From assembly GCA_028279065.1 (NCBI GenBank), contig JANQSY010000110.1, positions 1 to 64,000 on the forward strand: 64,000 bases of DNA. Direction: 5' to 3'. Both the position numbers and the translations under genes were made by a program. The notes under the pieces were generated by a model, which saw nothing but the letters and a program-made list of their open reading frames with translations, ran no database searches and was not told the origin of the DNA. How positions within the stretch are numbered: position 1 is the stretch's first letter; every line of letters starts with the position of its first letter. Of the stretch, positions 28,907-64,000 are shown piece after piece. This DNA comes from Cytophagales bacterium (GTDB taxonomy: Bacteria; Bacteroidota; Bacteroidia; Cytophagales; CCMP332).

Positions 28907-31900
28907 TTAGTACTTGATCAGCTTAACAGTCCTCTTTTCATTTCTAGAGGCCAATTCCACAATATAGATACCCGGGTTCAGATGCTCAGCTGGGATCGAA
29001 AGATGTTTCGCGGTAAAATCACCCATGTACTTCACGGAGCCCTTGGCATCTAAGATCCTGATATTAAACCCGTTCAAATCATTGAATCCTGAAGCTTCAA
29101 TCTCGATCGATTTGTTGAAGGGATTCGGATAGACCCCAATGGAATTAAGCTTAGATATGCTTTTCCCTGATACCTGAGCAGAATTAGTAGAATTGGAATC
29201 ATTGGACTTCGAGCGCCTGAAGGTCTTACCCTTTTTGTCTGTATCACATCCTATAGCCGGCCTTACCATTATAACATAGTATAGCCATGGATCATTGATC
29301 AAGGTTGGGATAACATCGGTATAGCTGTTTAATGTAGCGGGTACTGAATCGATCTTTTCCCATCCATTTGCAAGAGTGTTCCTGTAAATGAAATAGGTTG
29401 AGTAGGCGAAGCCCTGATAATCATCCCAGGAAAGGTTGATTGAATTTGGAACCAGCCCCAGGCTTTGGGTAAGATGTATGGTCTTGTGCTCAGGACTCAA
29501 GGAGCTTTCGTTCCCACAGGTATCAACAGCGGAAATCTTGTATTTCCAGGACCTGAATAATGGCAGAGCAACCGGATCTATGAATTCTCCGTCCTGAGAA
29601 AAGGGAACAGAGCCTATCAATTGATATACTCCTGCTGCAGATGATTCTCTATAAATATTATAATGGTCAATCCCTGCGAAATAATTCTTCTCCCAAACAA
29701 TAAGATTTGCCCCCGTGCTGCTGTCAACAGTAACCAGGCAAATAGGGTCCCCAAAGTTTGGGCTGGCTCCAAGATTGGCTGTGGCCGTTCCGAGGCATCC
29801 CTGGGTGTTGGAAACGGTAAGGTTGTAAACCCCTGAGCCTACGGAAATCAGATCCTCAACATTGGATCCACTTGACCAGGTGTAATTAAAAGGGGTATTG
29901 ACCCCGGTTGCTGTAACATATATTGAACCTGCCGGAGAGCTGCATGAAGGCTGGATCACCGAATCCAATACCACCTCAGGTCCAGCAATCTCTGATACAG
30001 CAGCCCAAATCGAATCAGAGCAGCCATTCTGGTCCGTAACAAATACAGAGTAAAAACCGGCAGAAAGTGAATTGGCAATTGAATCGAATGAACCATTGGA
30101 CCAATTATGGATATACGGGCCTGATCCTCCGGTGGCATGAACCACCGCACTTCCATTTGCAAGTCCACAATCGGTTTTTGTAGTTGTTGTGGACAGACTA
30201 ATTTCTGAAGGTTGAGTTACCTCAAATGTGGCCAGGGAAACACAGCTGTCTCCGTCAATCAACATGACCTCATATGGCCCAACTGAAAGGTTTGAGATGT
30301 CCTCAGAAGTGGAGCCATTGGTCCACCAATAATTGAAGGGAGAGATCCCACCTAAAACTGAAATGTCAATGGATCCATTATTACCTCCAAAACAACTTAC
30401 AGGATTGATTTGATTTGCTGTAATTGTGGGAGCCTCTGCGTCCGAGATCAAGATCTGCTTGTCAACTTTGCAACCTGTAGCATCTTCAACCTCTACAACG
30501 TATATCCCTGCTGCCAGGCTATCCGCAAAGGTGGTTTCATCCCCATTGGTCCACCGGTGATCATAGGGAGGAATTCCTCCATTGATGGTTATGCTTGCGG
30601 ACCCATTATTAAATCCGCAGTTTGCGTTGGTGGAACTTGGGGTAAGTATCATTTCCGGTGGGCGGGATATGGTTATGCTATCCAATCCATAACATCCATT
30701 GAAAGAGGATGCTGAGTCATATACATTAACATAATAAGTGCCAGCCTGAAGACCATGCAGATCAGAAGTCCGCAGCCCATTTGACCATTTATAAGAAAAT
30801 GGCGCCTTTCCGGCCAAAATGGTCAGGTCTATGGATCCATCATGAATGTTAAAACAGCTTTGGTCCTGAGCATTCAATGCAAAGCGAGGCCTTGGAGGGT
30901 CTGTCAATTCCACCGAATCAGTTGAGGAACAACCATTGGTATCTGTTACGATTACGGAATACCAACCTGCAGACAGGTTGAACAGAACCTGAGTGGAATC
31001 ATTTGTAGACCAATTAATATTATAGGGTCCCGCCTGGCCTGAGATCTGAAGTACCGCAGCACCATCGGAGCCTCCGCAGGATTGTGGATCGTTTTTCGTC
31101 AGGTTCAGAAAGGGCTTATTGTATCCTGCTATGGTAAATGGAATTGTTTCGGAGCAGCCGGCTGCATCGGAAATGGTTACGGTATAATTCCCTGCTGGAA
31201 GTTGATTTACAAATGGTCCGGTAGCTCCATTGGACCAATTTATTGTGAAAGGGAATTGACCACCAACCATGCTCACACTTGCCACACCTGTATTTTGAGA
31301 ACAGCTATCAGAGTTGAATGTGGTCAAAGTGGTTGTAAAAGTCACATTATCATCCAAATCGATAACCCTGAAAAATTCACACTGTCTTGAATCCCTTACT
31401 CTGACCCAATATTGGCCGCTTTGAACATTGAAAAGGGTTGAGATGGTATCCCCAGTTGACCAAAGGAATTGGTAGGGAGGGTAGCCCCCCTGCCCAAATG
31501 CTGTAATAGAACCATTTGATTGAGTGCATGTGGGCCTGATCGAATCTATGTTGACCCCTAATGGCAATGGGTCAGCGATCACGAATGTATCGTAGGTAGT
31601 GCAGTTGTTATTGGCAAAATCCGAGTCAATGATCGAAACAGAGTATGTTCCCGGAGCAAGGCTGTCCAGATCTTCAGTTGTAGGTCCATGTGCCCAGGTG
31701 TAAGAATAAGGCGGCAAACCTCCTGATACACTTAGATCGATCTTGCCATCATTATCTCCTGTGCAGGATGGGTTAGAAATGTTGGCAATTATATCTGCTT
31801 TGTCCGGACCATCCACAAAAACAGAATCGGAAGCCTGGCAACCAGTAGAGTCTGTGACATCAACCGAATACCATCCTTTTGGCAGGCCAGGCACTACGGA

Positions 31901-33859
31901 GGTGATTTGACCTGAAGACCATTGGACCGTGAATGGAGGATTTTGGCCAGCAACATTTACGATCGCGATCCCATCAGAACTACCACAAGTGGAAGTGGGA
32001 GTGGAAGTTGTGGTGACCTGTGGAGGACTTGATCCTCCTACATCTATCACGCGGATCACTTCACAGTTGTTCGCATCGGTAACAGAAAGGGTGTATTGGC
32101 CTGAAGCGAGATTTGAGATCACCTGGTTTGTGGATCCGGTTGACCAAAGAAAACTGTAGGGAGGGGCTCCGCCTGTTACGGAAGCGATGGCCATTCCATT
32201 ATTGGCACCGCAGGTATCAGCGCTAAATACCGTAACTGTAGGGTCTAGGGTTATCTGCTGCTGGATGTTAAATGTCTGCTGGGTTTCACAACCATTGGCA
32301 TCCCTAACGGTCAAGGTATAATTTCCTGGCACCAGGTTGCTTAATGTGGTTCCTGTTGGACCATGCGACCAAACCTCGGTATAGGGTGCCTGCCCTCCGG
32401 AATAATTAACACTGATCGCGCCATCATTGCCAATTCCACATGTGACCTGGGTAACAGAAGAAACGAATTCTATTGGTTCATTTTTTAGGATTGAATAGCC
32501 CATATCCCAAGACCCTGCACCATTGATAGTCTGGTTCCCCATGGTGTATGTTGGGCTGTTCGTTCTATAGCTCAGTATGATATCTTCATTTGGCATGACA
32601 TTGATCGAAAAGCCATAGTCATTTGCCAATCCGCCTCCGGACCTGGCCCATACCAGGTTTCCAGAAAAATCAACCAGTCCCCCAAAAGCATCATAAAACC
32701 CAGCATTGGTATTTATTAGGGTATCCTGGCCATCACTTAGTTGAACTCCGTCAAAATACCCAGCTATATAGAGCCCCTTATCAGCATGATCATCGAGCTC
32801 ATAAATAAGGTTGTTGCCGGGAGAGTTAAAGTTGGAGGTCCAAAGCATGCTTCCTGTTGAAGAAATCTCACCAAGGAAAGCCTCCCTGGTACCTGCTCCG
32901 GGATCGGTATTGATCAGTTGAGTTGCACCAATCGAAATGGTATCACTTGTCCAGTACCCTGAAATAAAGGCTTTTCCGAAGTTATTGACCTTAACCTGTG
33001 TCAAATAGTCATCGCCGCTTGCCCCATTCATCATGGTATGCCATTGAATGACTCCTCCACTGTTGATTTTTGTGACATAGGAATCGAAGCCGCCTTGAAT
33101 ATTATATACCTGGCCATTTAAGGTCACGGTATTACCATCTGAATATCCAACCACGTATACATTACCGCTCAGGTCGAAATCGGCATGTCTGGCATAGGCA
33201 TTGTTAGGAGAATAGTAGCCATGAGCCCAGGCAGCAGTACCATTGGAATTATATTTTACCACATATCCCTCTGTATTGGTGGGATTATTCAATGAGCCCC
33301 AGCCAGAAAAACCTGCAGCTGCAGTGGTATAGTAGCCTGTAACAGCCACCTGACCGGAAGGAGAGACTGAAAGATTGTACCCGATCACGTTTGCACCACC
33401 ACCACCTCCGGATCTTGTGTTCCAGATCTGATTGCCATTTGGACCATACTTGAAAACGAACATATAGGTCCTCCAAGGAAAGCTGTTATTTATGCCATTG
33501 AAGTGGTTTGAGGTGTATCCCGTGAAGTAAATATTTCCGCTTGCATCTGTTTCGGCGTCATAGATCACAACCGTTGGACTATTTATCGCCCAGGTTGCAT
33601 GGCCGGTCGAATCGAGCTTAACAATGAATCCATTATAGGTGCCCACTCGTTGGAATGTTGTGTCTCCAACGGTAAGCGAATCGCTATAGAAATATCCACA
33701 GATGATCTGATTCCCAAATGGATCGATCTCAGTATCCATGTGATAATCATCAAGGGCCCCACCCTGGTTAACGGAAATGTCCCATTTTTCACATTGAGAG
33801 TAGCTTATTAATGGAATGGTAAGGAGAAGGAGGAGAGGTAAGAGTAATCTTCGGCCCAT
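28907..33859 (-). CDS. Giant secreted SprB-repeat adhesin with T9SS type A sorting domain
   Basis: 1650 residues. Signal peptide 1-21. Residues ~25-460 form a propeller of SBBP-like repeats (WAINS, DASGNIYFTGYT, DLSGNVYVVGYS). About 465-1365 hold twelve SprB-type repeats of ~75 residues, each with a C near the start, GG/GxxPPYxxxWSxG in the middle and GxYxVxVTDxxGC at the end. Two Fn3-like domains follow (~1370-1545). The C-terminal ~75 residues are a type A sorting domain: IGVYPNPFNKSIEIEASGF through NPGIYIVEL and KLIKY. SprB is the cell-surface gliding adhesin of Flavobacterium; this protein shares repeats but has a different end. It should be exported by T9SS and anchored or released after CTD cleavage. 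The 56 bases downstream (28851-28906) are empty. Confidence 0.93.
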   Translation of the reverse strand: MGRRLLLPLLLLLTIPLISYSQCEKWDISVNQGGALDDYHMDTEIDPFGNQIICGYFYSDSLTVGDTTFQRVGTYNGFIVKLDSTGHATWAINSPTVVIYDAETDASGNIYFTGYTSNHFNGINNSFPWRTYMFVFKYGPNGNQIWNTRSGGGGGANVIGYNLSVSPSGQVAVTGYYTTAAAGFSGWGSLNNPTNTEGYVVKYNSNGTAAWAHGYYSPNNAYARHADFDLSGNVYVVGYSDGNTVTLNGQVYNIQGGFDSYVTKINSGGVIQWHTMMNGASGDDYLTQVKVNNFGKAFISGYWTSDTISIGATQLINTDPGAGTREAFLGEISSTGSMLWTSNFNSPGNNLIYELDDHADKGLYIAGYFDGVQLSDGQDTLINTNAGFYDAFGGLVDFSGNLVWARSGGGLANDYGFSINVMPNEDIILSYRTNSPTYTMGNQTINGAGSWDMGYSILKNEPIEFVSSVTQVTCGIGNDGAISVNYSGGQAPYTEVWSHGPTGTTLSNLVPGNYTLTVRDANGCETQQTFNIQQQITLDPTVTVFSADTCGANNGMAIASVTGGAPPYSFLWSTGSTNQVISNLASGQYTLSVTDANNCEVIRVIDVGGSSPPQVTTTSTPTSTCGSSDGIAIVNVAGQNPPFTVQWSSGQITSVVPGLPKGWYSVDVTDSTGCQASDSVFVDGPDKADIIANISNPSCTGDNDGKIDLSVSGGLPPYSYTWAHGPTTEDLDSLAPGTYSVSIIDSDFANNNCTTYDTFVIADPLPLGVNIDSIRPTCTQSNGSITAFGQGGYPPYQFLWSTGDTISTLFNVQSGQYWVRVRDSRQCEFFRVIDLDDNVTFTTTLTTFNSDSCSQNTGVASVSMVGGQFPFTINWSNGATGPFVNQLPAGNYTVTISDAAGCSETIPFTIAGYNKPFLNLTKNDPQSCGGSDGAAVLQISGQAGPYNINWSTNDSTQVLFNLSAGWYSVIVTDTNGCSSTDSVELTDPPRPRFALNAQDQSCFNIHDGSIDLTILAGKAPFSYKWSNGLRTSDLHGLQAGTYYVNVYDSASSFNGCYGLDSITISRPPEMILTPSSTNANCGFNNGSASITINGGIPPYDHRWTNGDETTFADSLAAGIYVVEVEDATGCKVDKQILISDAEAPTITANQINPVSCFGGNNGSIDISVLGGISPFNYWWTNGSTSEDISNLSVGPYEVMLIDGDSCVSLATFEVTQPSEISLSTTTTKTDCGLANGSAVVHATGGSGPYIHNWSNGSFDSIANSLSAGFYSVFVTDQNGCSDSIWAAVSEIAGPEVVLDSVIQPSCSSPAGSIYVTATGVNTPFNYTWSSGSNVEDLISVGSGVYNLTVSNTQGCLGTATANLGASPNFGDPICLVTVDSSTGANLIVWEKNYFAGIDHYNIYRESSAAGVYQLIGSVPFSQDGEFIDPVALPLFRSWKYKISAVDTCGNESSLSPEHKTIHLTQSLGLVPNSINLSWDDYQGFAYSTYFIYRNTLANGWEKIDSVPATLNSYTDVIPTLINDPWLYYVIMVRPAIGCDTDKKGKTFRRSKSNDSNSTNSAQVSGKSISKLNSIGVYPNPFNKSIEIEASGFNDLNGFNIRILDAKGSVKYMGDFTAKHLSIPAEHLNPGIYIVELASRNEKRTVKLIKY

Positions 33860-50084: not shown

Positions 50085-53000
50085 ATGAATATGTTTCGAG
50101 ACTTTCTACGAGTTATCGCACTAAGCCTTGTATGCTTTTTTCTATTTAACCAAAGGGCATCCGCACAATGCTCAAACCTGTCAGGTAGCTTTGTTAATGA
50201 TCTAAGGGTAGCAAGCCTTTGTGCTCCCACTCCTGTAACCTGGAACGTTGAGTTCGAATTCCTTTTTTCTGTTTCAGTTGCGGATACCGATAAGGTATAT
50301 ATTAACATTAGGTGGAATGATCCAGGCAATAACCAAGTCACGGTCCAGGCATCCCCGAATGGAAACAGAAGGCGTTTTTCTGTAAGTGAAAGTTTTACCT
50401 ATCCCGCAACTGGAGGAGATTGTAGTTATGAACCTATTGCGTTTGCTTGTTGGGACGCGGATGGGAATGGAATTATTAGTGGAGCAGAAGTTTGCGTAGG
50501 ATCCAGGATTGAAGCTACACTGTCTTCATGGTCTACCGATGATTCAAACGGAGGAACTTTAGCCATAAATCCTGCTCAGGAAGATATTTGTGTGGATGAT
50601 TCTGCCCTAAATTTTCAATTCCAAGATGCCACCTTTCCTAATTGTGAAGTCACAGTGGAACCTGATGTTCCCAACCAACAGACCAGATGGGTCCAATTCA
50701 TTTATGGTACCAACGTAAATCCAGGACCATATATTCCTCTGGTGTCTATAGATACCGGGGGTGGAACAGTCCAGATTACGGATGCTGCTGGAGCAATTAT
50801 TACCACTTTTGCCGGACCGATTATTGAAATTCCTGCCCCCGTTCTCGTAGGAGATCTAAATGAACTTACCTATCCAATTTCCTATCCTGGTGGAGTGGCA
50901 GCAATAGGTGATGTTTTCGAAATCACCCTTAGAAACTGGAATATTTGTAACCCTTATGATACGCTTCCGGATGGAAACCCACCAACTGACCCGGTTAACG
51001 GAGATTTTCCTGCGATTACCACAGAGGCAATTTTAAATGTGATTGGACCAACTCCGGCTACAGCTGGTCCTGACCAAGACGTTTGTGGAACTTCAACAAA
51101 TTTTGCTGCCAATACACCTGGGACTGGCACAGGGACCTGGAGTCAACTTACCGGTCCTACGGTTGCCTCAATTACCGATATCAATGACCCGACCTCAAAT
51201 GTTTCCATTGGTGGTGGTGGAGCGGCTGTAAAGGTTTACACATTTGAATGGTCCACGGCTTTAGGTGGTTGCGCAACGAGCGTTGATACCGTTCAAATCA
51301 CTTTTTACCGTGATCCCAATAATCCTAATGCGGGACCAGACCAAGACATATGCGGGTTGAGCACTACAATGGCTGCAAACAATATTACTCGAGGTTTTGG
51401 GCAATGGGTTCAAACTGGGGGGCCAGTTGCAAACCCGGGCCTTTCTTCAATTTTTGACAGAAATGCAACGCTCAATGTCTCTACTTCCGGTTATGGGGTA
51501 TACACCTTTGACTGGACGGCTAACAACCCACCCTGTGCGCAAAAAACAAACGAAGTAGTTATAACTTTTGAGCAAGACCCAACTACACCAAATGCGGGCC
51601 CAGATGACACCACGGTTTGTAATTCTTTAAACTATACGCTAGCAGGAAATTCAATTGGTGTTGGAACAGGAACCTGGACAAAGGTTTCCGGCCCAGTGGG
51701 AGCAGTAACATTCGCCCCCAATGCAAACGATCCGACTGCCACTGCCACCTTGCCCACCTACGGTACATTTGTTTTAAGATGGACTGCAACAAACGGAACC
51801 ATTTGTGCTGACCAAACGGATGATGTTACAATTTCTGCATTCCAAACCCCAACGGTTTCGGTAGCTGGAATAGACAGTACGCATTGCGGATTGAACATAA
51901 ACCTATATGGGAATACACCTACAGTTGGACAAGGAATGTGGACCCATGAATCCGGACCCGGACCCGTGGTATTTGTTGATGCCACCGACCCGAATACCTT
52001 GGTTACGGTTCCAAATGCAACAGTTTACAGGTTTAGATGGACAATTAGCAATGGGAATTGTCCTGATTCTTTTGATGACGTCTTTATTACCTTTGGCCCA
52101 CCTGCTGATGTTGCAAATGCCGGACCGGATGATTCGGTGTGTGCATCAGAACAGATCACTCTTGGAGCAAATGACCCTACTCCGGCACCTTCGTTAGGAA
52201 CGGGAACTTGGACTATAATCAATGGCCCCGCAGGATATGTTCTAGGGGCTAACACATTCATTTCAAATGTTAATGATCACAATGCAGTATTAAGTTGGGA
52301 TACCCTTTCTGCTATCGGAAATGGGCCATTCAGCTATACCCTAGTTTGGACAGTAACAAAGGTTTCTTGCCCTACCACCACGGACACAGTAGTTGTCTGG
52401 AATTATCCAAAGCCAACATCTGCTGTTGTCACCGGGTTAAATCCGAGGGTAACTTGCGCTTTAACTCAATCGATTTCCGCAAATCCACTTGCTGAAGGCC
52501 ATGGACAATGGACACAAGTTTCAGGACCAGGTATTTCAACATTCGTTGATGATACTCTTGCTACCACCAATGTCACTGTTTCTCAATCAGGGTACTACAG
52601 ATATAAATGGGAAGTCGTCTCAGGTCCTTGCTCGCCTCCTTCTAGAGACACATTGGATGTGGATTTCACAAGTCCTACTCCCTCTGCCGCTGGAAATGAT
52701 ACATCTACTTGTGCATTCTTCGACACCCTAAATGCTAACACTCCTACTGTAGGATCAGGTACCTGGACAGTAGTAGGACAACCTGTTGGTGGTACCTTAA
52801 GTTTTGATGATGTTAACAAGCCCAACGCAAGAACTGACCTTTCTGGAGCTATAGTCTACGGAACTTACACCCTCCGCTGGACAATTACCAATGCCGGTTG
52901 TACTGATGAGGTGGATGAAGTTGATATAACATTCTTTGAGGACCCTACAGTGCCCAATGCTGGTACAGATATTTTCGTTTGCGCCAACTCCACAAACATG

Positions 53001-56000
53001 GCAGCAAATGCCATAACTATAGGGACGGGTCGTTGGAAACAGGTTTCCGGCCCTGCGAGTATCGTGATTGGCAATGTGAATTTGGAAACCAGTTTAATGA
53101 CAGCACCTGCATTTTCTGATTCCGCTGTCTATGAATTGGAATGGGCATCCTTTAACGGGGTTTGTGATACTCTTAGAGATACTGTCCAAGTCACCTTCTA
53201 TGAGAGTCCAACCAACCCCAATGCCGGTACTGACATAGCAGTTTGCGCGACCTCAACCAACCTGGCTGGCAATGCAATAACGGTAGGTATAGGCACCTGG
53301 ACTCAAGTTTCCGGGCCTCCTACATTAACGATCACTTCCCCCAATTCTGAAACCAGTGCGATCAATATTTCAGGATTCACTCTTGACTCTGATACATTCT
53401 TAATAGAATGGGCCACAACAAATGGTAATTGCCCCGTTGAAAGAGATACTGTTCAGGTTATTTTTCATAATGATCCGACCCCGGCTACAGCGGGAACTGA
53501 TATTGATATTTGTGCCGATACAGCAATTCTTTCTGGGAACCCTCCTACAGTAGGTACTGGAACCTGGACTCAGGTATCGGGAACCGGAGCCCTGACCATT
53601 GACAATAATACCGACCCAAACACCACGGTTAGGAATCCTGTTTTTGGCGCAAATGACTCTTCAATCTACCTACTTGAATGGGCAACAAGTAATGGGAATT
53701 GTATTGTTTCGAGAGACACTGTTCAGGTGGTATTCTTCCTTGATCCGGATGTGGCTGATGCAGGCCTTAACGATGCGATCTGTGCTTTAACTTACACCCT
53801 TGCGGGAAATTCTCCACCCTATGTGGGTCGGGGTCTTTGGACTCTCGGAACTGGCCCCGGAACAGCGAGTTTTGTAGACCCAACCGATGAAGGTACGGAT
53901 GTAACCGTCACTGCCTATGGTTTGTATAAGTTTTACTGGACCTTGAGCAATGGGCCGTGTCCTTCAAATACTGATTCGGTGTTAATAAGGTTTGATGAAT
54001 TCCCCTCCAGCGCTTCTGCAGGACTTGATGACACGGTCTGTGCATTGACCTATACTCTGGATGGGAATGTTCCTGGAGTTGGAACCGGAGAATGGTCTCT
54101 TGTGTCTGGGCCAGGTACTGCAACATTTGTTGATTCCTCACAAAACAACACCGATGTTACTGTTTCGTCAGTTGGAACATATGAATTTGAATGGAGGATC
54201 TCTAATGGAGTTTGTGCGGATTCTACCGACAATGTCATAATAATATTTGCTGCATCTGGTGGAAATACAGGAGTAAATGGTGATACTACTCAATGTATTG
54301 GTGCAACTAATGAAGTTTATGACGTTCCCTTTGTTCCTGGAACTACCTACGAGTGGTTGCTTCCTGCAAACGTGGATTCACTTTTTGGAGGAGGAGAATT
54401 TGATAATTTCTATGTCCTTGAATTCAACACGGCGGGAACATTTACGATTGGGGTTATTCCGACCAATAATTTTGGATGTTCCTCGGATACCCAAACAACC
54501 GATGTAACGGTTTACGATTTCCCAACTATAGATGCCGGACCTGATCATGCTATCTGTTCCGGTGATACTGTAGTTCTTGGAGGAGCCCCTACGGCTTCCG
54601 GCGGTTCTGGGGTTTTTGGTTATAACTGGTTTCCAACAAGCGGACTGGATGATGCAACAGCTGCAAATCCAAATGCATTTCCAACATTCGACAGGTCTTA
54701 CTTTCTGACCGTAACTGATTCTGTTTCAGGATGTATCACCCAACAGGATACCGCTGTTGTCACAGTCAATTCCAGCCCGTCAAGCCAACTTCTGGTTCTT
54801 GATCCTTCCATCTGTGAGGGGGATAGCGCAAGGCTCTACATCACCTTCCCAACTGGGGTTGGACCGTTTTCCGTAAGCATAAGTACTGGTGCTGATACCC
54901 TTGTTTTCCCGAGTGTGAGCAACCCGGATACATTGTTGGTTGGTCCTGATTCAACGATCACCTATCAAGTCATAGCGATTTTTGATTCGGCTACTTCTTG
55001 TGTAGGATCTACCTTCGTTGGGGCAGCTACCGTGAATGTAAGAGCATTACCAACCGCCACTTTAAGCACACTTGACTCTGTGATTTGTGAAGGTGACATA
55101 GCAAATCTTAACATATCGGTTTCAGGGCCTGCTCCTCAGATCTATACCATTGAATATGCCATTAACGGACAAGACACAACTGTATTTAATCTTGTTGGTG
55201 GAAGTGGAACCATTCCGGTTGCACCGGATAGCACAAGCCTTTACACTCTGATAAGTGTTACGGATAACTTCAGGAGTTGCCAGGTCAACGCTCCATCGAT
55301 AAGATTTACGGACAGTGTTCTTATTACTGTTGATTCTCTGCCGAGGGGAATTCTTACTGGTGGGGATACGATTTGCGCCGGTGATTCTGCTGCTTTGGTA
55401 GCCAATTTCACTGTGGGTGATGGCCCGTTTACCCTGGTGATCAACAACCTTGGAACAATTAATAATTATAACAGTGGTGATACGATTTGGGTAACCCCAA
55501 CGTCTACAACTGTTTATTCGCTTGCTTCTGTCTCTGATTCAAACTCCTGTGTTGCAACGGGAAGTTTGATCGGGGGATCGGCAACCATTATTGTTAATCC
55601 TCTCCCTGTAGCGACATTGCTTGGGACTTCAACTATTTGTCTGGGAGACACTGCGAATCTTTCTGTTCTTGTTACTGTAGGAACAGGACCATTCACGGTC
55701 ATCATCGATAACGGTGATACTGTTCTGAATTACAACAATTTGGATCCGATCCCTGTTGCTCCGTTGGTCACCACAAGTTATAATCTACTGGAAGTGACGG
55801 ATACCTTTGGCTGTACTACTTCAGCTCCATCCCCAGACCTGACGGGCAATCCATTGGTTACAGTGAATCCACTACCGACCGCCCAGGTTCAGCAGGACGA
55901 TACCATATGTAATGGTCAGACCACTACCCTGACTTTCAGTATGACAGGGCAAACGCCTTTCATTGTTACCTTCAGGAACAACACCACAGGGCAGGATAGC

Positions 56001-59000
56001 ACCATCGCAACCGTAGGATCCGCAACTTCTATCAACCTGGTCCTTGGACCTGATACCACAACCATATACTCCATTGTTAGTGTGATGGACGGCAACGGCT
56101 GCATGGACTCTGTTGGAAATCCAATAAACCCTGCTTTTGGGGACAGCGTGGAGATCTTTGTAAGGGATGTTCCTTCTGCTACTCTCGCTGCCGATACGAC
56201 AATATGTGATGGACAAACCGGTCATCTTTTCGCTACGGTGAGCAATGGTCTGGCTCCATTTACCCTTAACATCAGTGGTGGAGTTGGCATCATAAACAAT
56301 TACAATTCAGGGGATACAATTTTTGTAAACCCAAGTGATACCACCGACTACTATATCATCTCACTGACCGATGCCAACGGTTGCGGGGTAGTTGCCGGTG
56401 ATACCAATCTGCCTGACACAGTTACATTTAACGTAAATCCACTGCCTGTGGCAGATCTATTTGGGGATGCAACTATCTGTTTTGGTGATTCGACACCGAT
56501 TCAACTCACAATGTCTCCATTCACAGGACCTTATATTGTTGAATTGAGCAATGGCGTGACGGATTCTTCGTACTATAGCCTTGACTCGATATGGGTAAGT
56601 CCGACCACAACTCTTACGTACAATATTGTTAGGGTTACCGATTCAACAACGGGTTGTGTGATCATTGCACCTGATGCCAGCCTGACCGGCTCAGCGACCA
56701 TCACGGTCAATCCATTGCCTACGGCTCAAGTAGCCTCAGATGATACCATCTGTTTTGGTGAGAGCACCATTCTGACTTTCAGCATGACAGGCCAGGCCCC
56801 ATTCACGGTAACTTACAGGGATAACCTGACCATGCAGGACAGCACCTTTATGACTATAGGTTTGTCCACTTCAAGAAACATTACGGTTACCCCGGCTGAT
56901 ACCACCATCTACAGCCTGGTGAGCGTAATTGATGCAAACGGATGTGCTGACTCGATCAACAATCCGATCAATCCGGCATTTGGAGATTCGGTCACCATCA
57001 TGGTAAGGCCTGAGCCTTCAGCGAACTTCTCTGTATTCGCTGATGTAGATACGATCTGTAACGGGGACATCTCATATCTGACCGCTAACCTGACGGTTGG
57101 AGTTCCTCCGTACCAACTGATCGTAAGCAGTGGAGTAGGAGTGGTTAACAATTTCAACAATGGAGATTCGATACTGGTGAACCCAAGTATCACGACCCAA
57201 TACTGGATCGAGCAGTTAACCGATTCAAATGGTTGCGTTGTGATGGCGGGAAGCCCAAATCTTCCGGATACGGTAACGGTCCATGTGGATCCGCTACCAA
57301 CGGCAGATCTAAGTGGAGATGCCACCATCTGCTTTGGGGACAGCACCCCACTGGTACTTGCGATGGGTCCAACCACGGGCCCATTCATCGTTGAGCTGAC
57401 CAATGGGGAGGTTGATAGTTCCTATTATGATATGGATAGTATTTGGGTGAGTCCGACCACGACGACCACCTATACCATACTGAGAGTTACTGACTCCATT
57501 ACCGGATGTTTTGTGGATGCCCCGGACGCCAGCCTGACCGGCTCAGCGACCATCACGGTCAATCCATTGCCTACGGCTCAGATCGGATCTGATGATACAA
57601 TATGCTTTGATGATAATGTAGTCCTCACCCTGAGTATGACCGGACAGTTCCCATTCACGGTCACCTATAGGGATAATACTTTAATGAGGGATTCCACCAT
57701 TACTACAGTTGGATCACTTACATCACATCAGGTAACAGTTAGTCCTGATAGTTTCACCATTTATTCTCTTGTTAGTGTGATCGATGGAAACGGATGTGTT
57801 GACTCGATCAACAATCCGATCAATCCGGCTTTTGGAGATTCCACAACGATCTGGGTGGATAGTCTGCCTATAGCCGAGATAGTGATCGATCCATTGACAG
57901 ACACGATTTGCGATCTTGATACGGCATTCCTAATAGTGAATGTCAGTACTGGGCCTGGTCCATATAATATTCAGATCTCTGGTGGAGTAGGTGCGATCAA
58001 CGGGTATATCAGTGGAACTCCTATTCCTGTTACGCCGTCAACCAATACCACGTACAGACTTACCTTCCTTGAGGACGCCAATGGATGTTCGGTGATCGAT
58101 GGTCATCCGAATATCGATACGACCGTAACTGTGGTTGTCAATCCTCTTCCTGTAGTAGAGCTCAGACTTTCTCAGAATGAGATATGCCTAGGTGATTCTG
58201 CTCAGCTATTTTGGAATGTAACTGTTGGAATAGATCCAATAAGAGTGGTCATCGATGATGATCCAAGTGATACCATCGCCGCTGGAATAAACGATTCGAT
58301 CTGGGTAAGTCCGATTGACACAACAACGTACACTATCCTTTATTTCGAGGATGGAAATGGTTGTGCTGTATCAGCTCCGAATCCAAATATTTCCGGTACC
58401 CCAACCTTGATCGTCAATCCTTTGGCTACTGCGTCCATCTTCCAGGATGATACCATTTGTTATGGAGATAACGCCGAACTGATCTTCAGGATAGCGGGGG
58501 CAAATGCGCCCTACACAGTTACTTATTTGGATACTGGCGGTGCGCCATTGACCCAATTCAACGTGGTAGACAGCACTATAGTGAACTGGAGTCTGAACCC
58601 TGGGCTGAACACCTTCACTCTGAGGAATGTAGTGGATGACAAGGGTTGTGTTGCAAATCTATCAGCTGACACCATTGTGGATATTCTGGTACATGAGCTT
58701 CCTACCGTTGCGATCAGCGGGGACACCACTCTTTGCGAGGGAGAAACAGGTAAACTTTACTTTGATTTCACAGGGGTTGGGCCATTTACAGTAGTTTATA
58801 CCCATGGAATCACCCAGGACACGGCCACATTGAATGGCCCAAGGGATTCAGTTGACTTTGATGTTACTCCTTCTCCGATTCCCTATGTCTATACGCTGGT
58901 TGAGGCCTTTGATTCAAATCTTCCGGATGCATGTTATGCAACCAGCCTGACCGGAACTGCTACAGTAATAATGTACGAGAGAGCAAGGATCAGCTGGGCA

Positions 59001-62000
59001 AATGGAAATGACACCACCATTTGTGATCGTGATTCCTATGTGTTGACATTTGATGTTCAGGGCGGAAGACCTACCTACTCCGTAGATATATCCTGGTCGG
59101 ATGGAATAACTGTAGATACGACTTTGACTGGTATAGGAGATAACTCTATCTACATAGTTTCTCCAAGTGATACCACCACATATACCATTGTGTCAGCGAT
59201 CGAAGAGTTCACTACGGAGCTTTGTGAGGCCGTAGTTGTTGATGATTCTGTCGTGACCATCAATGTCAATCAATTGCCTACGGCTGATGTTGCGGTTACC
59301 GGGCCAACCGATGTATGCGATGGAGATAGCATTACCCTGGAATTCAATTTCACCGGACAGGCGCCATGGGATCTGACCTACCTGACTACCTATGCAGGAA
59401 CATTGGATACGCTTGGAGTAACAGCCAATCCATTGGTATTGCAGGTAGCTCCGCCATTTGCTGGAAGCTATTCGGTCTCTATTCTATCCGTTAAGGATGG
59501 GCATACACCTCAATGTCAGGTATTTGCGCCCGATGCCAATATTACTGGTCTTGCAAGCTTCACAACACATGGACTGCCATCTGCCAGCCTGAACCCATTG
59601 GGACTCACCACCGTATGTCGTGGTGATACCACCGACCTGCTGGTAGTTGCTTCAGGAGGGACTCCTCCATACAGGATCTTTATCTCTGATGGAGCTGGCT
59701 ACAATATTGACACAACATTCAATAGCAATACGATTGTCATTCCGGTATTCCCGACAAATACCACCACCTTCAGCATTGACAGTCTGATGGATTCGAATGC
59801 TCTTACTGCCGCCGGATGTATGGCTGATACAGCCAACCTGACCGGTCAGGTTACAGTAACCGTTAATGATAGGCCAACAGCAGGTATAAGTGGAATCGAC
59901 ACGGTTTGTTCTCTTGAGAACAGTTCATTCCAGATCACTCTGGGTGGTACAGGTCCGTGGTTTGTACAGTACAGCGATGGCACCAATACCTTCCCAACTG
60001 TAGCCACTAGCTCACCGCATACCGTAACCGTGATCAATCCTTCGGTTGGAACAAATGTATATAAGATCGTTACGGTCTCCGATAATGGATTGATTCCATC
60101 ATGCCCTGCTGATTCTCTTCCAACGGATTCAGCCTGGGTGCATGTCAACGACCTGCCGTCTGCTACGCTTTCAGGTGATACAAGCATTTGCGAAGGCGAC
60201 CTCTTGCCCTTGGCCCTTGATTTCGGGGTTACCAATGGGCCATTCGGAGGACAGATCATCGATGGAAACGGAGTGACATATCCGTTTACAGGATTGCTAT
60301 TCCCAACAGACACCGTCCTGATCCCATATACTCAGACCGGATTGCAGACCTACTTCCTGGATTCCGTGATCGATGAAGGAACGACCTGTGAACCATTGTT
60401 TACAGTCGGGCAGGCTATAGTTACCATTAGGCCTACAGTGACCGTTGATCTTTCAGGCTCCGATACCATTTGCGATGGGGCATTCGGTGTGGGACGTTTG
60501 TTCTTTGACTTCACCGATGCTAATGGAACCGCTCAAGGAGCATATGATGTGGAAATTTTGAGAAATGGAATTCCGGTTGATACGGCGCTTCAAGCAACCC
60601 CAGGAAGCTTTATAGATGCCCCGGATCTCCAGGTTGGAATGAACAACTATACAGTTGGCTGGGCAACCTACACTTCAGTGGGTGCAGCCACACCTCCGTA
60701 TTGCGACCTTGTTCCAGGAACAGGAGCGGATATTCTGGTTCATCCACTTCCCAATGCAACCATCCAGGATGATGACACAATATGCAATGGGCAAAGTACC
60801 ACATTGACTTTTGATTTGACTGGGCAAGCGCCTTTCGATATCAGATACTCGGCAGGGTTTACTAGTGAGGATACAGTTGCTTCAACTGGTTCACTTACAA
60901 TATCTGTTTCTCCTGCTAACCGCACAACCTATGCCCTCTCTATAGTGACTGATGCGAATGGTTGTTCACAAAGCAACTTCCCTTCAAGTGACAGCACTGA
61001 GGCAACGATCATTGTCAATGATCTGCCATTAGCCCAGCTGAGGATCGATGGATTCTTCTCCAATTCGGTGAACTTCTGTGAGGAGGATACCGCTGCATTG
61101 CAGATCCTGCTGACTGGAAATGGGCCCTTTGATGTTGAGGTCGGTGATAATCTCGGAAATACCTATAACAGGACCGGGTTCAACAGCGGTGATACCATAC
61201 AGGTATTCCCGCCATTGAGCGTGCCAGTCAGATACTTCATCAATTCGGTTTTCGATAGCCATAATCCGACCTGTAGTCCTGCGACTTTGACCGATACGGT
61301 CACCATATTTACTGATCCTTTGCCAACCGGGGATTTGACCGGAGACACTACAATTTGTCTTGGCGCTACCGCTCCACTAAGAATAGACCTTACTGGTATT
61401 GGTCCATGGAATATTCAAGTTGATGGTGTTCCGGGGACTACTCAGGTACTTTCCTCACCTTTTATTTTAGATGTTACACCAGTAACCACGACCACTTACA
61501 GGATCATAAGCATTGTGGACGTTGGAACCAATAATGATTGTGGTGTGGATTCCACCCATGGAAATGTTACCGGAATTGTAACCGTAACCGTAGCACCAGA
61601 GGTATTCGCCGGATTCACATTTACCGAGGATGGAAGATGCGGTGATCCCACATTCACTTTCACTGACACCACCGCACCACCCAATACCTATAGCTATTTC
61701 TGGAGTTTTGGAGATGGGGATACCTCAACGCTTCAAAACCCTGTACATCAGTATAACAACACTACATTGAATGTTGTGAACTATGATGTCACTCTAATAG
61801 CAACTACCGTAGCCAATCCAGTGGGTTGTCAGGATTCTGTAACCCAAACCATTTCGGTCAGACCGGCGATCACCGCTGATCTGACTGTATCTGAGGATTC
61901 AGGTTGTTCACCGTTTGAGGTGACCTTCACCAGTAATAATGCTGCTGTTTCGAGGTACTGGGATTTTGAGTCTAATGGAACGGATCTACAGGTAGGAAAT

Positions 62001-63206
62001 GCAATAGAGACCTATACATTCGAGAATACTGGATTGACAGATGTTACATTCAATGTGTGGCATGTGGTTGAAAACCAATTTGCTTGTAGGGATACTTTGA
62101 TCCAGGATATCAGGGTCTTTGCCTTACCAAAGCCTGCGTTCACGGCAAATCCTCAAGTTCAGAACTGGCCGATTTCTCCTGTGTCTTTCACCAATAACAC
62201 CCCGAATGTGAATACGTTCACCTATTTCTGGGACTTTGGAGATGGTCTTGGCGCATCAAATGCAATCAATCCTCCGGATTATACTTACAATACCTGGGGC
62301 GACTTCGATGTTCAGTTGACAGCCACCTCGGTTAACGGTTGTGTGGATTCATTCACTCAGACCGTAACTATTTTGCCTGAGCTTCCGGTTGCGAGCCTTC
62401 CAGGAGATACAGCATTCGGTTGTGCGCCGTATGAATACACTTTCACGCATAACTCACAGTTTGCATTCTCCTCAGTATGGAAGTTCACCGACGGCCAGAC
62501 CTATGCTTCGGATGAGGTTACCAGAAGCTTCCTTACGCCAGGAGACCAGGGTGCGCCTAAGTTCATTGGAGTATGGCTTGTGGTAACTGGGTTGAATGGA
62601 TTCCAGGACTCCACCTTCCAGCAGGTGATCGCGGTTGTTTATCCTACCCCACAGGCTGCATTTACGACTTCGTTTGATACGGTATTTGCACCAAATAACA
62701 AGGTCAACTTCAACAACTTCAGTCTGTATTATGATAGCCTGAAATGGGATTTCGGTGACGGAACTACTGCATTCACTGTCAACCCAACGCATACCTACGA
62801 GAAAGAAGGTGAGTATGATATCACAATGATCGCGTACTCGGATGAGGGTTGTACGGATACAGCGGTAAGACCTATGGTTGTGAAGCCAACCGCAAATATT
62901 TTCGTACCGAATGTATTCATTCCAAATCCGGCAGGGCCAAGTGGAGGGGATATTTCCTCTGCCACGGGTCAGTTGATCAATACGGTGTTCTATCCGGTGC
63001 CAAATAAACCGGTCAAGAGCCTGATATTCCAGATCTTCAATCGCTGGGGTGAGGTGATCTTCGAGTCACAGGATGTCAATATTGGATGGGACGGTTATGT
63101 CAATGGAAAATTGGCAACACAATCAGTGTATATCTATAGGGTGGATGTGAAGTTCACCGATGGATCGGAAGAAACGATAATTGGGGACGTAACTCTCCTC
63201 AGGTAG
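50085..63206 (+). CDS. Giant repetitive T9SS type B surface adhesin (4373 residues)
   Basis: Signal peptide 1-~28 (ending RASAQC). An N-terminal beta-rich region runs to ~320. Twelve copies (~322-1387) of an ~89-residue domain follow, with signature NAGPDxxVC, GxGTWTQVSGP and SNGxC. Two further Ig-like domains come next (~1388-1562), one starting DAGPDHAICSGDT. About 24 copies (~1563-3838) of a ~95-residue Ig-like domain follow, with signature GDxTICxGDS, GPFTV, TTxYxIxSVxDxNGC and TITVNPLP. Five PKD-type domains (~3840-4266; FWSFGDGDTS, FWDFGDGLGA, KWDFGDGTTA) precede the type B sorting domain (~4268-4373: ANIFVPNVFIPN, FQIFNRWGEVIFESQ, IGWDGYVNGKLA, YIYRVDV). The type B CTD and the PorP/SprF gene 14 bases downstream indicate T9SS export and surface attachment, as for SprB/SprF. 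The reading frame is uninterrupted for 13.1 kb. Confidence 0.95.
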   Translation: MNMFRDFLRVIALSLVCFFLFNQRASAQCSNLSGSFVNDLRVASLCAPTPVTWNVEFEFLFSVSVADTDKVYINIRWNDPGNNQVTVQASPNGNRRRFSVSESFTYPATGGDCSYEPIAFACWDADGNGIISGAEVCVGSRIEATLSSWSTDDSNGGTLAINPAQEDICVDDSALNFQFQDATFPNCEVTVEPDVPNQQTRWVQFIYGTNVNPGPYIPLVSIDTGGGTVQITDAAGAIITTFAGPIIEIPAPVLVGDLNELTYPISYPGGVAAIGDVFEITLRNWNICNPYDTLPDGNPPTDPVNGDFPAITTEAILNVIGPTPATAGPDQDVCGTSTNFAANTPGTGTGTWSQLTGPTVASITDINDPTSNVSIGGGGAAVKVYTFEWSTALGGCATSVDTVQITFYRDPNNPNAGPDQDICGLSTTMAANNITRGFGQWVQTGGPVANPGLSSIFDRNATLNVSTSGYGVYTFDWTANNPPCAQKTNEVVITFEQDPTTPNAGPDDTTVCNSLNYTLAGNSIGVGTGTWTKVSGPVGAVTFAPNANDPTATATLPTYGTFVLRWTATNGTICADQTDDVTISAFQTPTVSVAGIDSTHCGLNINLYGNTPTVGQGMWTHESGPGPVVFVDATDPNTLVTVPNATVYRFRWTISNGNCPDSFDDVFITFGPPADVANAGPDDSVCASEQITLGANDPTPAPSLGTGTWTIINGPAGYVLGANTFISNVNDHNAVLSWDTLSAIGNGPFSYTLVWTVTKVSCPTTTDTVVVWNYPKPTSAVVTGLNPRVTCALTQSISANPLAEGHGQWTQVSGPGISTFVDDTLATTNVTVSQSGYYRYKWEVVSGPCSPPSRDTLDVDFTSPTPSAAGNDTSTCAFFDTLNANTPTVGSGTWTVVGQPVGGTLSFDDVNKPNARTDLSGAIVYGTYTLRWTITNAGCTDEVDEVDITFFEDPTVPNAGTDIFVCANSTNMAANAITIGTGRWKQVSGPASIVIGNVNLETSLMTAPAFSDSAVYELEWASFNGVCDTLRDTVQVTFYESPTNPNAGTDIAVCATSTNLAGNAITVGIGTWTQVSGPPTLTITSPNSETSAINISGFTLDSDTFLIEWATTNGNCPVERDTVQVIFHNDPTPATAGTDIDICADTAILSGNPPTVGTGTWTQVSGTGALTIDNNTDPNTTVRNPVFGANDSSIYLLEWATSNGNCIVSRDTVQVVFFLDPDVADAGLNDAICALTYTLAGNSPPYVGRGLWTLGTGPGTASFVDPTDEGTDVTVTAYGLYKFYWTLSNGPCPSNTDSVLIRFDEFPSSASAGLDDTVCALTYTLDGNVPGVGTGEWSLVSGPGTATFVDSSQNNTDVTVSSVGTYEFEWRISNGVCADSTDNVIIIFAASGGNTGVNGDTTQCIGATNEVYDVPFVPGTTYEWLLPANVDSLFGGGEFDNFYVLEFNTAGTFTIGVIPTNNFGCSSDTQTTDVTVYDFPTIDAGPDHAICSGDTVVLGGAPTASGGSGVFGYNWFPTSGLDDATAANPNAFPTFDRSYFLTVTDSVSGCITQQDTAVVTVNSSPSSQLLVLDPSICEGDSARLYITFPTGVGPFSVSISTGADTLVFPSVSNPDTLLVGPDSTITYQVIAIFDSATSCVGSTFVGAATVNVRALPTATLSTLDSVICEGDIANLNISVSGPAPQIYTIEYAINGQDTTVFNLVGGSGTIPVAPDSTSLYTLISVTDNFRSCQVNAPSIRFTDSVLITVDSLPRGILTGGDTICAGDSAALVANFTVGDGPFTLVINNLGTINNYNSGDTIWVTPTSTTVYSLASVSDSNSCVATGSLIGGSATIIVNPLPVATLLGTSTICLGDTANLSVLVTVGTGPFTVIIDNGDTVLNYNNLDPIPVAPLVTTSYNLLEVTDTFGCTTSAPSPDLTGNPLVTVNPLPTAQVQQDDTICNGQTTTLTFSMTGQTPFIVTFRNNTTGQDSTIATVGSATSINLVLGPDTTTIYSIVSVMDGNGCMDSVGNPINPAFGDSVEIFVRDVPSATLAADTTICDGQTGHLFATVSNGLAPFTLNISGGVGIINNYNSGDTIFVNPSDTTDYYIISLTDANGCGVVAGDTNLPDTVTFNVNPLPVADLFGDATICFGDSTPIQLTMSPFTGPYIVELSNGVTDSSYYSLDSIWVSPTTTLTYNIVRVTDSTTGCVIIAPDASLTGSATITVNPLPTAQVASDDTICFGESTILTFSMTGQAPFTVTYRDNLTMQDSTFMTIGLSTSRNITVTPADTTIYSLVSVIDANGCADSINNPINPAFGDSVTIMVRPEPSANFSVFADVDTICNGDISYLTANLTVGVPPYQLIVSSGVGVVNNFNNGDSILVNPSITTQYWIEQLTDSNGCVVMAGSPNLPDTVTVHVDPLPTADLSGDATICFGDSTPLVLAMGPTTGPFIVELTNGEVDSSYYDMDSIWVSPTTTTTYTILRVTDSITGCFVDAPDASLTGSATITVNPLPTAQIGSDDTICFDDNVVLTLSMTGQFPFTVTYRDNTLMRDSTITTVGSLTSHQVTVSPDSFTIYSLVSVIDGNGCVDSINNPINPAFGDSTTIWVDSLPIAEIVIDPLTDTICDLDTAFLIVNVSTGPGPYNIQISGGVGAINGYISGTPIPVTPSTNTTYRLTFLEDANGCSVIDGHPNIDTTVTVVVNPLPVVELRLSQNEICLGDSAQLFWNVTVGIDPIRVVIDDDPSDTIAAGINDSIWVSPIDTTTYTILYFEDGNGCAVSAPNPNISGTPTLIVNPLATASIFQDDTICYGDNAELIFRIAGANAPYTVTYLDTGGAPLTQFNVVDSTIVNWSLNPGLNTFTLRNVVDDKGCVANLSADTIVDILVHELPTVAISGDTTLCEGETGKLYFDFTGVGPFTVVYTHGITQDTATLNGPRDSVDFDVTPSPIPYVYTLVEAFDSNLPDACYATSLTGTATVIMYERARISWANGNDTTICDRDSYVLTFDVQGGRPTYSVDISWSDGITVDTTLTGIGDNSIYIVSPSDTTTYTIVSAIEEFTTELCEAVVVDDSVVTINVNQLPTADVAVTGPTDVCDGDSITLEFNFTGQAPWDLTYLTTYAGTLDTLGVTANPLVLQVAPPFAGSYSVSILSVKDGHTPQCQVFAPDANITGLASFTTHGLPSASLNPLGLTTVCRGDTTDLLVVASGGTPPYRIFISDGAGYNIDTTFNSNTIVIPVFPTNTTTFSIDSLMDSNALTAAGCMADTANLTGQVTVTVNDRPTAGISGIDTVCSLENSSFQITLGGTGPWFVQYSDGTNTFPTVATSSPHTVTVINPSVGTNVYKIVTVSDNGLIPSCPADSLPTDSAWVHVNDLPSATLSGDTSICEGDLLPLALDFGVTNGPFGGQIIDGNGVTYPFTGLLFPTDTVLIPYTQTGLQTYFLDSVIDEGTTCEPLFTVGQAIVTIRPTVTVDLSGSDTICDGAFGVGRLFFDFTDANGTAQGAYDVEILRNGIPVDTALQATPGSFIDAPDLQVGMNNYTVGWATYTSVGAATPPYCDLVPGTGADILVHPLPNATIQDDDTICNGQSTTLTFDLTGQAPFDIRYSAGFTSEDTVASTGSLTISVSPANRTTYALSIVTDANGCSQSNFPSSDSTEATIIVNDLPLAQLRIDGFFSNSVNFCEEDTAALQILLTGNGPFDVEVGDNLGNTYNRTGFNSGDTIQVFPPLSVPVRYFINSVFDSHNPTCSPATLTDTVTIFTDPLPTGDLTGDTTICLGATAPLRIDLTGIGPWNIQVDGVPGTTQVLSSPFILDVTPVTTTTYRIISIVDVGTNNDCGVDSTHGNVTGIVTVTVAPEVFAGFTFTEDGRCGDPTFTFTDTTAPPNTYSYFWSFGDGDTSTLQNPVHQYNNTTLNVVNYDVTLIATTVANPVGCQDSVTQTISVRPAITADLTVSEDSGCSPFEVTFTSNNAAVSRYWDFESNGTDLQVGNAIETYTFENTGLTDVTFNVWHVVENQFACRDTLIQDIRVFALPKPAFTANPQVQNWPISPVSFTNNTPNVNTFTYFWDFGDGLGASNAINPPDYTYNTWGDFDVQLTATSVNGCVDSFTQTVTILPELPVASLPGDTAFGCAPYEYTFTHNSQFAFSSVWKFTDGQTYASDEVTRSFLTPGDQGAPKFIGVWLVVTGLNGFQDSTFQQVIAVVYPTPQAAFTTSFDTVFAPNNKVNFNNFSLYYDSLKWDFGDGTTAFTVNPTHTYEKEGEYDITMIAYSDEGCTDTAVRPMVVKPTANIFVPNVFIPNPAGPSGGDISSATGQLINTVFYPVPNKPVKSLIFQIFNRWGEVIFESQDVNIGWDGYVNGKLATQSVYIYRVDVKFTDGSEETIIGDVTLLR
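55870..58420 (+). repeat. Higher-order repeat inside the adhesin gene: three-domain block repeated about three times
   Basis: The domain opening AQVQQDDTIC (gcc at 55881) recurs as AQVASDDTIC (gct at 56724) and AQIGSDDTIC (gct at 57576), spacings of 843 and 852 bases. Each block has the same order of three Ig-like domains: DDTIC with SMTGQ, then a D(T)TIC domain, then GDATICFGDS. The third block diverges after its first domain. Within it, 56676-56728 is identical over all 53 bases to 57528-57580. Confidence 0.85.
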
Positions 63207-63220
63207 AAAAATTGTAAAGC

Positions 63221-64000
63221 ATGAAAAGGATACTCCTACTTGCAATTCTAATTATTGGGTCCGGCCTTGGACTAAAGGCGCAGGATTTCCAGGTCTCGCA
63301 GTACTATGCTGCTCAGACGTTCCTTAATCCTGCCTTCGCCGGAAATACCACTATGGCAAGGGTAAATAGCATTGCCCGATTGCAGTGGCCATCGAATGCA
63401 GCAAGGTATCGGACCTTTGTTGTAGGTGCAGATCATAATCTTCCTCATCTGAATAGTGGGGCGGGAATACTGTTCACCAGGGATGCCGCTGGCTCGGCCT
63501 CTCTTGCTACCAATTATGTGGGAGGAATGTATGCCTATCAATTGGGAATAAACAAGAAGTGGGCGATGAGGACAGGTTTGCAGATCGGATATTCCTGGTT
63601 ATCCATCGACGAGGGGTCTTTGACCTTCAGAGACCAGTTGAATGACAATGGTACCATCGCTGGTTCTACATCTCAGACCATTCCTTTCAATACAAAGAAT
63701 TTCTTTGATGTCACCGCAGGTTTCCTTTGGTTCACCAACAAGGCCTGGATAGGAACGACCTTCAAGCATTTGAACAGGCCTAATCAAAGTTTGATCACCG
63801 GTGAAGAAGGAAATCTACCGGTGTACTTCTCATTGCATGCAGGATACCAGTTCCCCCTTTATCCGGGAGGAAGGTATAGGGGAGATGCCAGGCAATCCTA
63901 TTTCAGCCCAACCTTCAACTATAAGAGACAGGGAAATTTCAACCAGCTTGACATAGGTGCTTACTTCTCCTATGAGTGGTTGGTAGTGGGTTCATGGTAC
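63221..64000 (+). CDS. PorP/SprF-family type IX secretion membrane protein, 5' part (cut by window end)
   Basis: 260 codons are present and the frame is open at the window edge. Signal peptide 1-~20 (KRILLLAILIIGSGLGLKAQ) is followed by DFQVSQYYAAQTFLNPAFAG. This is the family hallmark Q-x-S-Q-Y-x5-x-x-NPAFAG. Then come beta-strand stretches with alternating hydrophobics (NYVGGMYAYQLGINKKWAMR, LQIGYSWLSI, FFDVTAGFLWF and HLNRPNQSL). These outer-membrane beta-barrel proteins pair with type B cargo: SprF is needed to secrete SprB. The position 14 bases after the giant type B adhesin is the expected cargo-partner arrangement. The ATG at 63221 is preceded by AAAGC with no strong ribosome-binding site. 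Confidence 0.95.
   Translation, partial: MKRILLLAILIIGSGLGLKAQDFQVSQYYAAQTFLNPAFAGNTTMARVNSIARLQWPSNAARYRTFVVGADHNLPHLNSGAGILFTRDAAGSASLATNYVGGMYAYQLGINKKWAMRTGLQIGYSWLSIDEGSLTFRDQLNDNGTIAGSTSQTIPFNTKNFFDVTAGFLWFTNKAWIGTTFKHLNRPNQSLITGEEGNLPVYFSLHAGYQFPLYPGGRYRGDARQSYFSPTFNYKRQGNFNQLDIGAYFSYEWLVVGSWY

Follow-up and report, generated by a model that had tools for sequence, protein, structure and literature searches.

Copying of several domains at a time within a repeat array and bacterial surface stalks of variable length are both already known. In multi-domain internal duplication, as set out in the passages of Bjorklund et al. (2006, PMC1553488) cited here, several domains are copied in the middle of an array and leave a peak of similarity at the lag of the unit, as for the seven-domain units of nebulin. 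Periscope Proteins such as SasG, Rib and Sgo_0707 are surface stalks that, according to the cited part of Whelan et al. (2021, PMC8201768), become longer or shorter as highly identical repeats are gained or lost. A third described system is SprB of Flavobacterium johnsoniae with its partner SprF, which the corresponding section of PMC9143113 presents as a giant repetitive protein with a type B C-terminal domain beside a PorP-like protein. Here, we describe a gene of a Cytophagales bacterium (assembly GCA_028279065.1, contig JANQSY010000110.1, positions 1 to 64,000, hereafter the window) that can be compared with all three. It lies on the forward strand (50085..63206), is predicted from its open reading frame (ORF), Pfam matches and domain segmentation to encode a giant surface protein of 4373 aa, and contains immunoglobulin-like (Ig-like) domains of three types arranged in repeated three-domain blocks. 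We propose, with a probability of roughly three in four, that it encodes a stalk-like substrate of the type IX secretion system (T9SS) whose Ig-like region has evolved by unequal recombination between blocks, the duplications in this genome being old and overlain by later patches of gene conversion.

Three-domain blocks in the Ig-like array

The predicted product consists, in this order, of an N-terminal part, a PKD-type array, an Ig-like array, PKD domains and a type IX secretion C-terminal domain. Pfam matches (eight families at E 0.01) spread Ig-like and PKD families over the 4373 aa, with CHU_C at the end, and domain segmentation divides the Ig-like array (54519-61319) into 24 domains. The similarity between domains three positions apart is high (its mean score is 139, compared with 86 for shuffled orders) and is equalled in none of 5000 shuffles of domain order; the similarity at lag 6 is reached by 23 of the 5000, and lags 1, 2, 4 and 5 are not prominent. 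This lag-3 peak, together with the clustering of the domains into types A, B and C in repeated order, is the pattern by which multi-domain internal duplication is recognised. The array was not detected by Tandem Repeats Finder, with a longest period of 500.

Four blocks follow one another on the forward strand. Block 0 (55050..55871; A0 55050-55337, B0 55338-55601, C0 55602-55871) is diverged and was recognised from the block tree and its domain types. Block 1 (55872..56714; A1 55872-56168, B1 56169-56441, C1 56442-56714) is 843 nt long and was delimited by the domain segmentation; block 2 (56715..57566; A2 56715-57020, B2 57021-57293, C2 57294-57566) is 852 nt long and pairs with block 1; block 3 (57567..58421; A3 57567-57872, B3 57873-58148, C3 58149-58421), of 855 nt, is placed by the block tree as an edge block. 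A first-pass annotation, made from the letters of the window, had proposed that three different Ig-like domains repeat in order with periods of 843 and 852 and that the duplicated unit is the three-domain block and not the single domain. Segmentation (starts 55872, 56715 and 57567) bears out the order and the periods, and with the lag analysis and the domain tree it also bears out the size of the unit; the starts given at the time (55881, 56724 and 57576) each fall 9 nt inside the segmented block start, and the A-B-C order begins one block earlier than the three blocks then counted, with A0-B0-C0. A structure model of block 2, whose alignment comprised seven non-overlapping stretches of the window, shows three beta-sandwiches with a mean pLDDT of 90.7.

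An isolated A-type domain (domain 23; 60747..61028, forward strand) lies far downstream of the blocks. Its best partners are A2, A1 and A3, and its likeness to A1 extends to the DNA (55890-55961 against 60765-60836, 74% over 72 nt). Since this domain stands outside the blocks, not all copies arose as three-domain blocks. A related genome, designated G002 and considered below, also has a domain in a similar place. The earlier statement that the remaining array is alike at the protein level only is nearly true, the upstream PKD-type array still holding DNA-level pairs (52953 against 53217, 72% over 102 nt; 53406 against 53676, 76% over 74 nt).

Exact tracts, block age and the ortholog in a related genus

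Two exact matches link consecutive blocks. One, of 53 nt, spans the C1/A2 junction (56676..56728) and the C2/A3 junction (57528..57580); the other, of 30 nt, lies close to the end of A2 (56948..56977) and close to the end of A3 (57800..57829), all four copies being on the forward strand. Both matches have an offset of 852 nt, and they are the sole exact repeats of at least 16 nt in the gene; the longer one had been reported as a perfect match of 53 bases and proved exact and maximal. When the gene was shuffled among synonymous codons (n=1000), the longest exact repeat averaged 16.8 nt with a maximum of 29, and no shuffle reached 30 nt. Of the 23 residues that agree over the 25 codons covering the 53-nt tract, 19 are encoded by the same codon. 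Similarity between the two tracts drops to background, and they are therefore probably two separate patches. The 53-nt tract, a single case, is richer in G+C (62%) than the gene (47%), a possible hint of GC-biased conversion.

The blocks themselves are old. Their DNA identity in the window is 53-63%, with 63% between blocks 1 and 2 and 54% between blocks 2 and 3. With the tracts included, the same codon is used at 86 of 187 identical residues (0.46) when B1C1A2 is compared with B2C2A3, at 76 of 187 (0.41) between blocks 1 and 2, and at 60 of 145 (0.41) between blocks 2 and 3. The codon usage of the gene alone predicts 0.375, and orthologous stretches of the two genera compared below give 70/174 and 64/160 (0.40). 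As the fractions between blocks are close both to chance and to the level between genera, synonymous positions are at or near saturation. Judged by these codons, no block of this genome appears to have been copied recently, and a fresh block copy is excluded. The two tracts are recent relative to their surroundings, which are not: 53 and 30 nt without synonymous change stand inside near-saturated flanks, the feature by which gene conversion is recognised, and short-tract conversion at the 852-nt offset, acting on old duplications, looks like the simplest reading of them. For the 53-nt match, the first-pass annotation had offered either a recent event or gene conversion, and had concluded that expansion is still active at this spot. 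The codon comparison and the synonymous shuffles back the conversion alternative; recent expansion is contradicted for this genome by codon saturation and the low identity of blocks 2 and 3, and what stands of the claim is that block turnover is seen at this spot in a related genus.

This comparison comes from a search with the block region in 39 genomes, of which 13, including that of the window, gave some match. The only close match besides the genome itself was G002, which belongs to the same family and a different genus and is assembled as a single 3.3-Mb contig. The G002 ortholog contains six A-B-C blocks where the window contains three, so that the difference in repeat number is one between two genera, and its blocks 3 to 5 are mutually 99.8-99.9% identical, carry a few distinguishing bases and contain exact repeats of 870, 739 and 418 nt. 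The flanking domains, five before and eleven after the blocks, have one-to-one spacing in the two genes; G002 lacks the motif twice and the window lacks it once, without any change of spacing. The block array of G002 starts and stops at a C/A junction, which is the position of the 53-nt tract in the window. Block-wise turnover at this spot is supported by the six blocks against three and by the three near-identical ones.

The relationships between the blocks of the window (W) and those of G002 (G) were assessed in block and domain trees, from which we left out G002 blocks 3 and 5, whose B domains have a broken reading frame and which are otherwise 99.8-99.9% like block 4, as well as the flanking domains A9/B9. 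The block tree recovers the pairs (W0,G0) with support of 100/100, (W1,W2) with 100/99, (W3,G6) with 97/94 and (G2,G4) with 98/97, and trees constrained to join W1 with G1 (p-AU 4.0e-5), W2 with G2 (p-AU 3.5e-5) or W2 with G4 (p-AU 1.5e-4) were rejected. In this tree the edge blocks appear as orthologs and the inner blocks as lineage-specific, blocks 1 and 2 of the window forming such a lineage-specific pair and block 3 being an older edge block that pairs with G6, the last block of the relative; this arrangement would be expected if the middle of the array turns over. In a tree of 27 domains from the window gene and G002, types A, B and C are separated by two changes, which is the minimum; support is moderate, and no branch of the best tree sets type B apart from all other domains. 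This separation makes it most likely that the three types, and with them the fourth block (55050-55871), are older than the split of the two genera.

We propose that unequal recombination between whole three-domain blocks built up the Ig-like region and continues to lengthen and shorten it in related lineages. The recombination would be homologous, probably of the RecA type, and would join the copies at the C/A junction, which may be a preferred seam. In this genome, old block duplications would have been followed by short conversion patches between matching parts, C1-A2 and C2-A3. The number of blocks would set the distance of the N-terminal part from the cell.

Several points weigh against this account. 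G002 is the single block-bearing ortholog available for comparison, and its reading frame is broken by two one-base deletions within the near-identical blocks, with an undeleted copy between them; the interrupted product may not be made, or assembly errors may be present. A genome of the same genus as that of the window (G001) did not match the N-terminal part at all, and its matches to the C-terminal part were weak (34%). The agreement between the 53-nt tract and the edges of the G002 array is one coincidence, with a chance of roughly one in ten if the tract plus the uncertainty of the edges is set against the length of a block. As for the trees, G1, G2 and G4 do not form a clade in the best tree, forcing them together is not rejected (p-AU 0.128), and the rejection of W1, W2 and W3 as a single clade is marginal (p-AU 0.0365). 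Trees of a single domain type are poorly resolved, with one starred branch each, and none alone recovers the block tree, which averages over domains that may have been exchanged separately.

Other explanations account for parts of these data. If the 53-nt match were the footprint of a recent block duplication, and expansion active in this genome, it would be natural for it to cross a block junction at the exact block offset, and G002 does possess genuine recent block copies at the same spot; however, a copy of 852 nt would be alike throughout, as those of G002 are (99.8-99.9%), whereas blocks 2 and 3 are only 54% identical and, away from the tracts, synonymous change is close to saturated, which makes this possibility very improbable. 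Selection on the protein or the DNA, for example for a linker with fixed codons, might instead have held the tracts identical without exchange, as few stretches are more conserved than the linker motif VNPLPTA, and 85% of the 39 nt of another junction (59255-59293) are shared with the tract. Such selection is an improbable cause, since linkers of the same protein sequence elsewhere in the gene are written with different codons, identical stretches of the synonymous shuffles stop at 29 nt, and the junctions of G002 differ from the 53 nt.

The genome of the window is a draft of 191 contigs, the G002 gene has its two one-base interruptions in near-identical blocks, and the G002 sprA gene is split by an in-frame stop, all of which could point to an artefact of assembly or consensus in which mis-joined reads created the tract or the extra blocks of the relative. 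We hold this unlikely, as the tracts are short, flanked by diverged unique sequence and located inside a contig of 80,928 nt, and G002 is a single 3.3-Mb contig whose blocks carry a few distinguishing bases. The order A-B-C could also be kept by protein function alone, each domain type having its own binding role and recombination being confined to ancient duplications, in line with three types that are older than the split of the two genera. The lineage-specific pairing of blocks and the near-identical blocks of G002 nevertheless need later copying, and we give this explanation very little credence.

Export context and neighbouring genes

The C-terminal end of the giant protein matches the CHU_C type IX secretion domain (63012..63173, forward strand; PF13585, 29.6 bits for a cut-off of 27), and the NCBIfam model for type B sorting, TIGR04131, scores 28.1 bits at the same end, under its cut-off of 35. 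The next gene (63221..64000, forward strand, continuing past the window end) encodes an outer-membrane partner of the PorP/SprF family (PF11751, 2.3e-45; TIGR03519, 9.6e-53), and SprA, the type IX channel, was found above its cut-off in all three genomes of the family, including that of the window. These three features, a CHU_C C-terminus, an adjoining PorP/SprF gene and SprA in the genome, mark the product as a probable type IX substrate of type B. According to the part of PMC9143113 on which we draw, PorP-like proteins bind proteins with a type B C-terminal domain, and SprF binds SprB. By analogy with that work, we expect a giant surface stalk that leaves the cell through the T9SS and is held by the neighbouring PorP/SprF protein. 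The model of GldJ, part of the gliding machinery, gave 2.4e-41 in the genome of the window, yet stayed below its curated cut-off in all three genomes, and GldK-like paralogues are not separated by this search. In G002, sprA (L076, G002:C1:1366300-1374000) is split into 1755 and 703 aa, which, taken with the interrupted adhesin gene, means that the system is decaying or that the sequence is faulty.

The SprB repeat (PF13573) is not among the eight Pfam families of the giant protein at E 0.01, and by this profile search it does not appear to be an SprB-repeat protein. Another gene of the window, on the reverse strand (28907-33859), has a product of 1650 aa in which SprB repeats occur in eight stretches and which carries a Por secretion tail; it is a second probable type IX substrate in the window.

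Among Pfam families, the Ig-like domains best match that of the nucleoporin POM152 (PF24312, 9.6e-38, best stretch at residues 2221-2294), and a sequence search of the PDB also led to POM152 (2e-10). A likeness between a putative bacterial adhesin and a nuclear-pore protein is unexpected, and concerns the level of sequence. Fold comparison returned generic multi-Ig chains, POM152 and phage virion proteins, several of the last being named Ig-like, and gave no clue to function.

Size of the unit and comparison with known systems

Immediate neighbours in the array are dissimilar, with identities of 33-45% in the window and 27-44% in G002, thus never above 45%, and domains three positions apart are up to 78% identical in the window and 100% in G002, two interrupted B domains of the latter being compared over their first 79 residues only. 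The consulted parts of several papers propose that like neighbours misfold and that multi-domain copying may avoid this (PMC1553488, PMC8201768, PMC4660218), and in the passage from Bjorklund et al. (2006, PMC1553488) avoidance of aggregation is put forward as a possible reason why selection would favour copying several domains together. The array agrees with this proposal, as a fit rather than a test, and its unit may be three domains for that reason.

A survey of giant ORFs of other families argues against a general rule. Fourteen were taken from the 24 genomes that match the N-terminal part, a count that includes the genome of the window and G002, and most of them have a one-domain period (about 92-106 aa) visible at all its multiples; hence the three-domain block is not a general feature of the order. 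At the one-domain lag, identity in these giant relatives reaches 79% over 70 residues, and 100% in one of them, L057, so that their one-domain period would count against neighbour dissimilarity as a general requirement. Exact repeats exceeded those of all 100 synonymous shuffles in two of the 14 (L057 and L061) and not in the other 12. L057 (G273:C1:2421500-2438500) contains exact DNA repeats of up to 270 nt at a lag of 582, or two domains, and L061 a 32-nt exact repeat at a lag of 849, about three domains. L060 (G353:C1:2145500-2160500) has a strong lag of 353 aa, or four domains, with 90% protein identity and no exact DNA repeat beyond the shuffles. A scan of the genome collection added one weak relative, L037 of Lacibacter luteus (28% identity), which was not used further. 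It is conceivable, though we consider it doubtful, that selection favours the three-domain unit where a stalk has to change length by recombination and yet keep like neighbours from misfolding: identical DNA would recur one block away, dissimilar domains would adjoin, and a DNA-identical C/A seam, refreshed by short gene conversion, would allow exactly one in-frame block to be gained or lost. If so, stalks built of such blocks would be a variable-length class in keeping with the neighbour-dissimilarity rule, which Periscope Proteins break.

The examples of multi-domain internal duplication in the cited part of PMC1553488 are mostly eukaryotic; here, the case is a probable secreted bacterial adhesin, with near-identical copies at the DNA level in a related genome. 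The likeness to SprB does not extend to the SprB repeat, the domains being Ig-like and PKD, and we do not extend it to gliding. In a limited literature search, no report was found of block-wise length variation in type B or T9SS adhesins. Two stages are visible in this family: one genus retains old blocks patched by conversion, and another has newly multiplied blocks at the corresponding place. The suggestion from the literature that copying several domains separates like ones becomes a testable question. With Periscope Proteins, as presented in the cited part of PMC8201768, the protein would share a surface stalk of tandem folded domains. The tandem domains of that class are highly similar, as in the G5/E repeats of SasG, whereas the unit here comprises three domains with neighbours at most 45% identical; the long, highly identical tandem repeats that define the class are found only in blocks G3-G5 of G002, and not in the window, with its 53-63% DNA identity. 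The array provides a bacterial case in which recombination works on units of three domains and folding on units of one.

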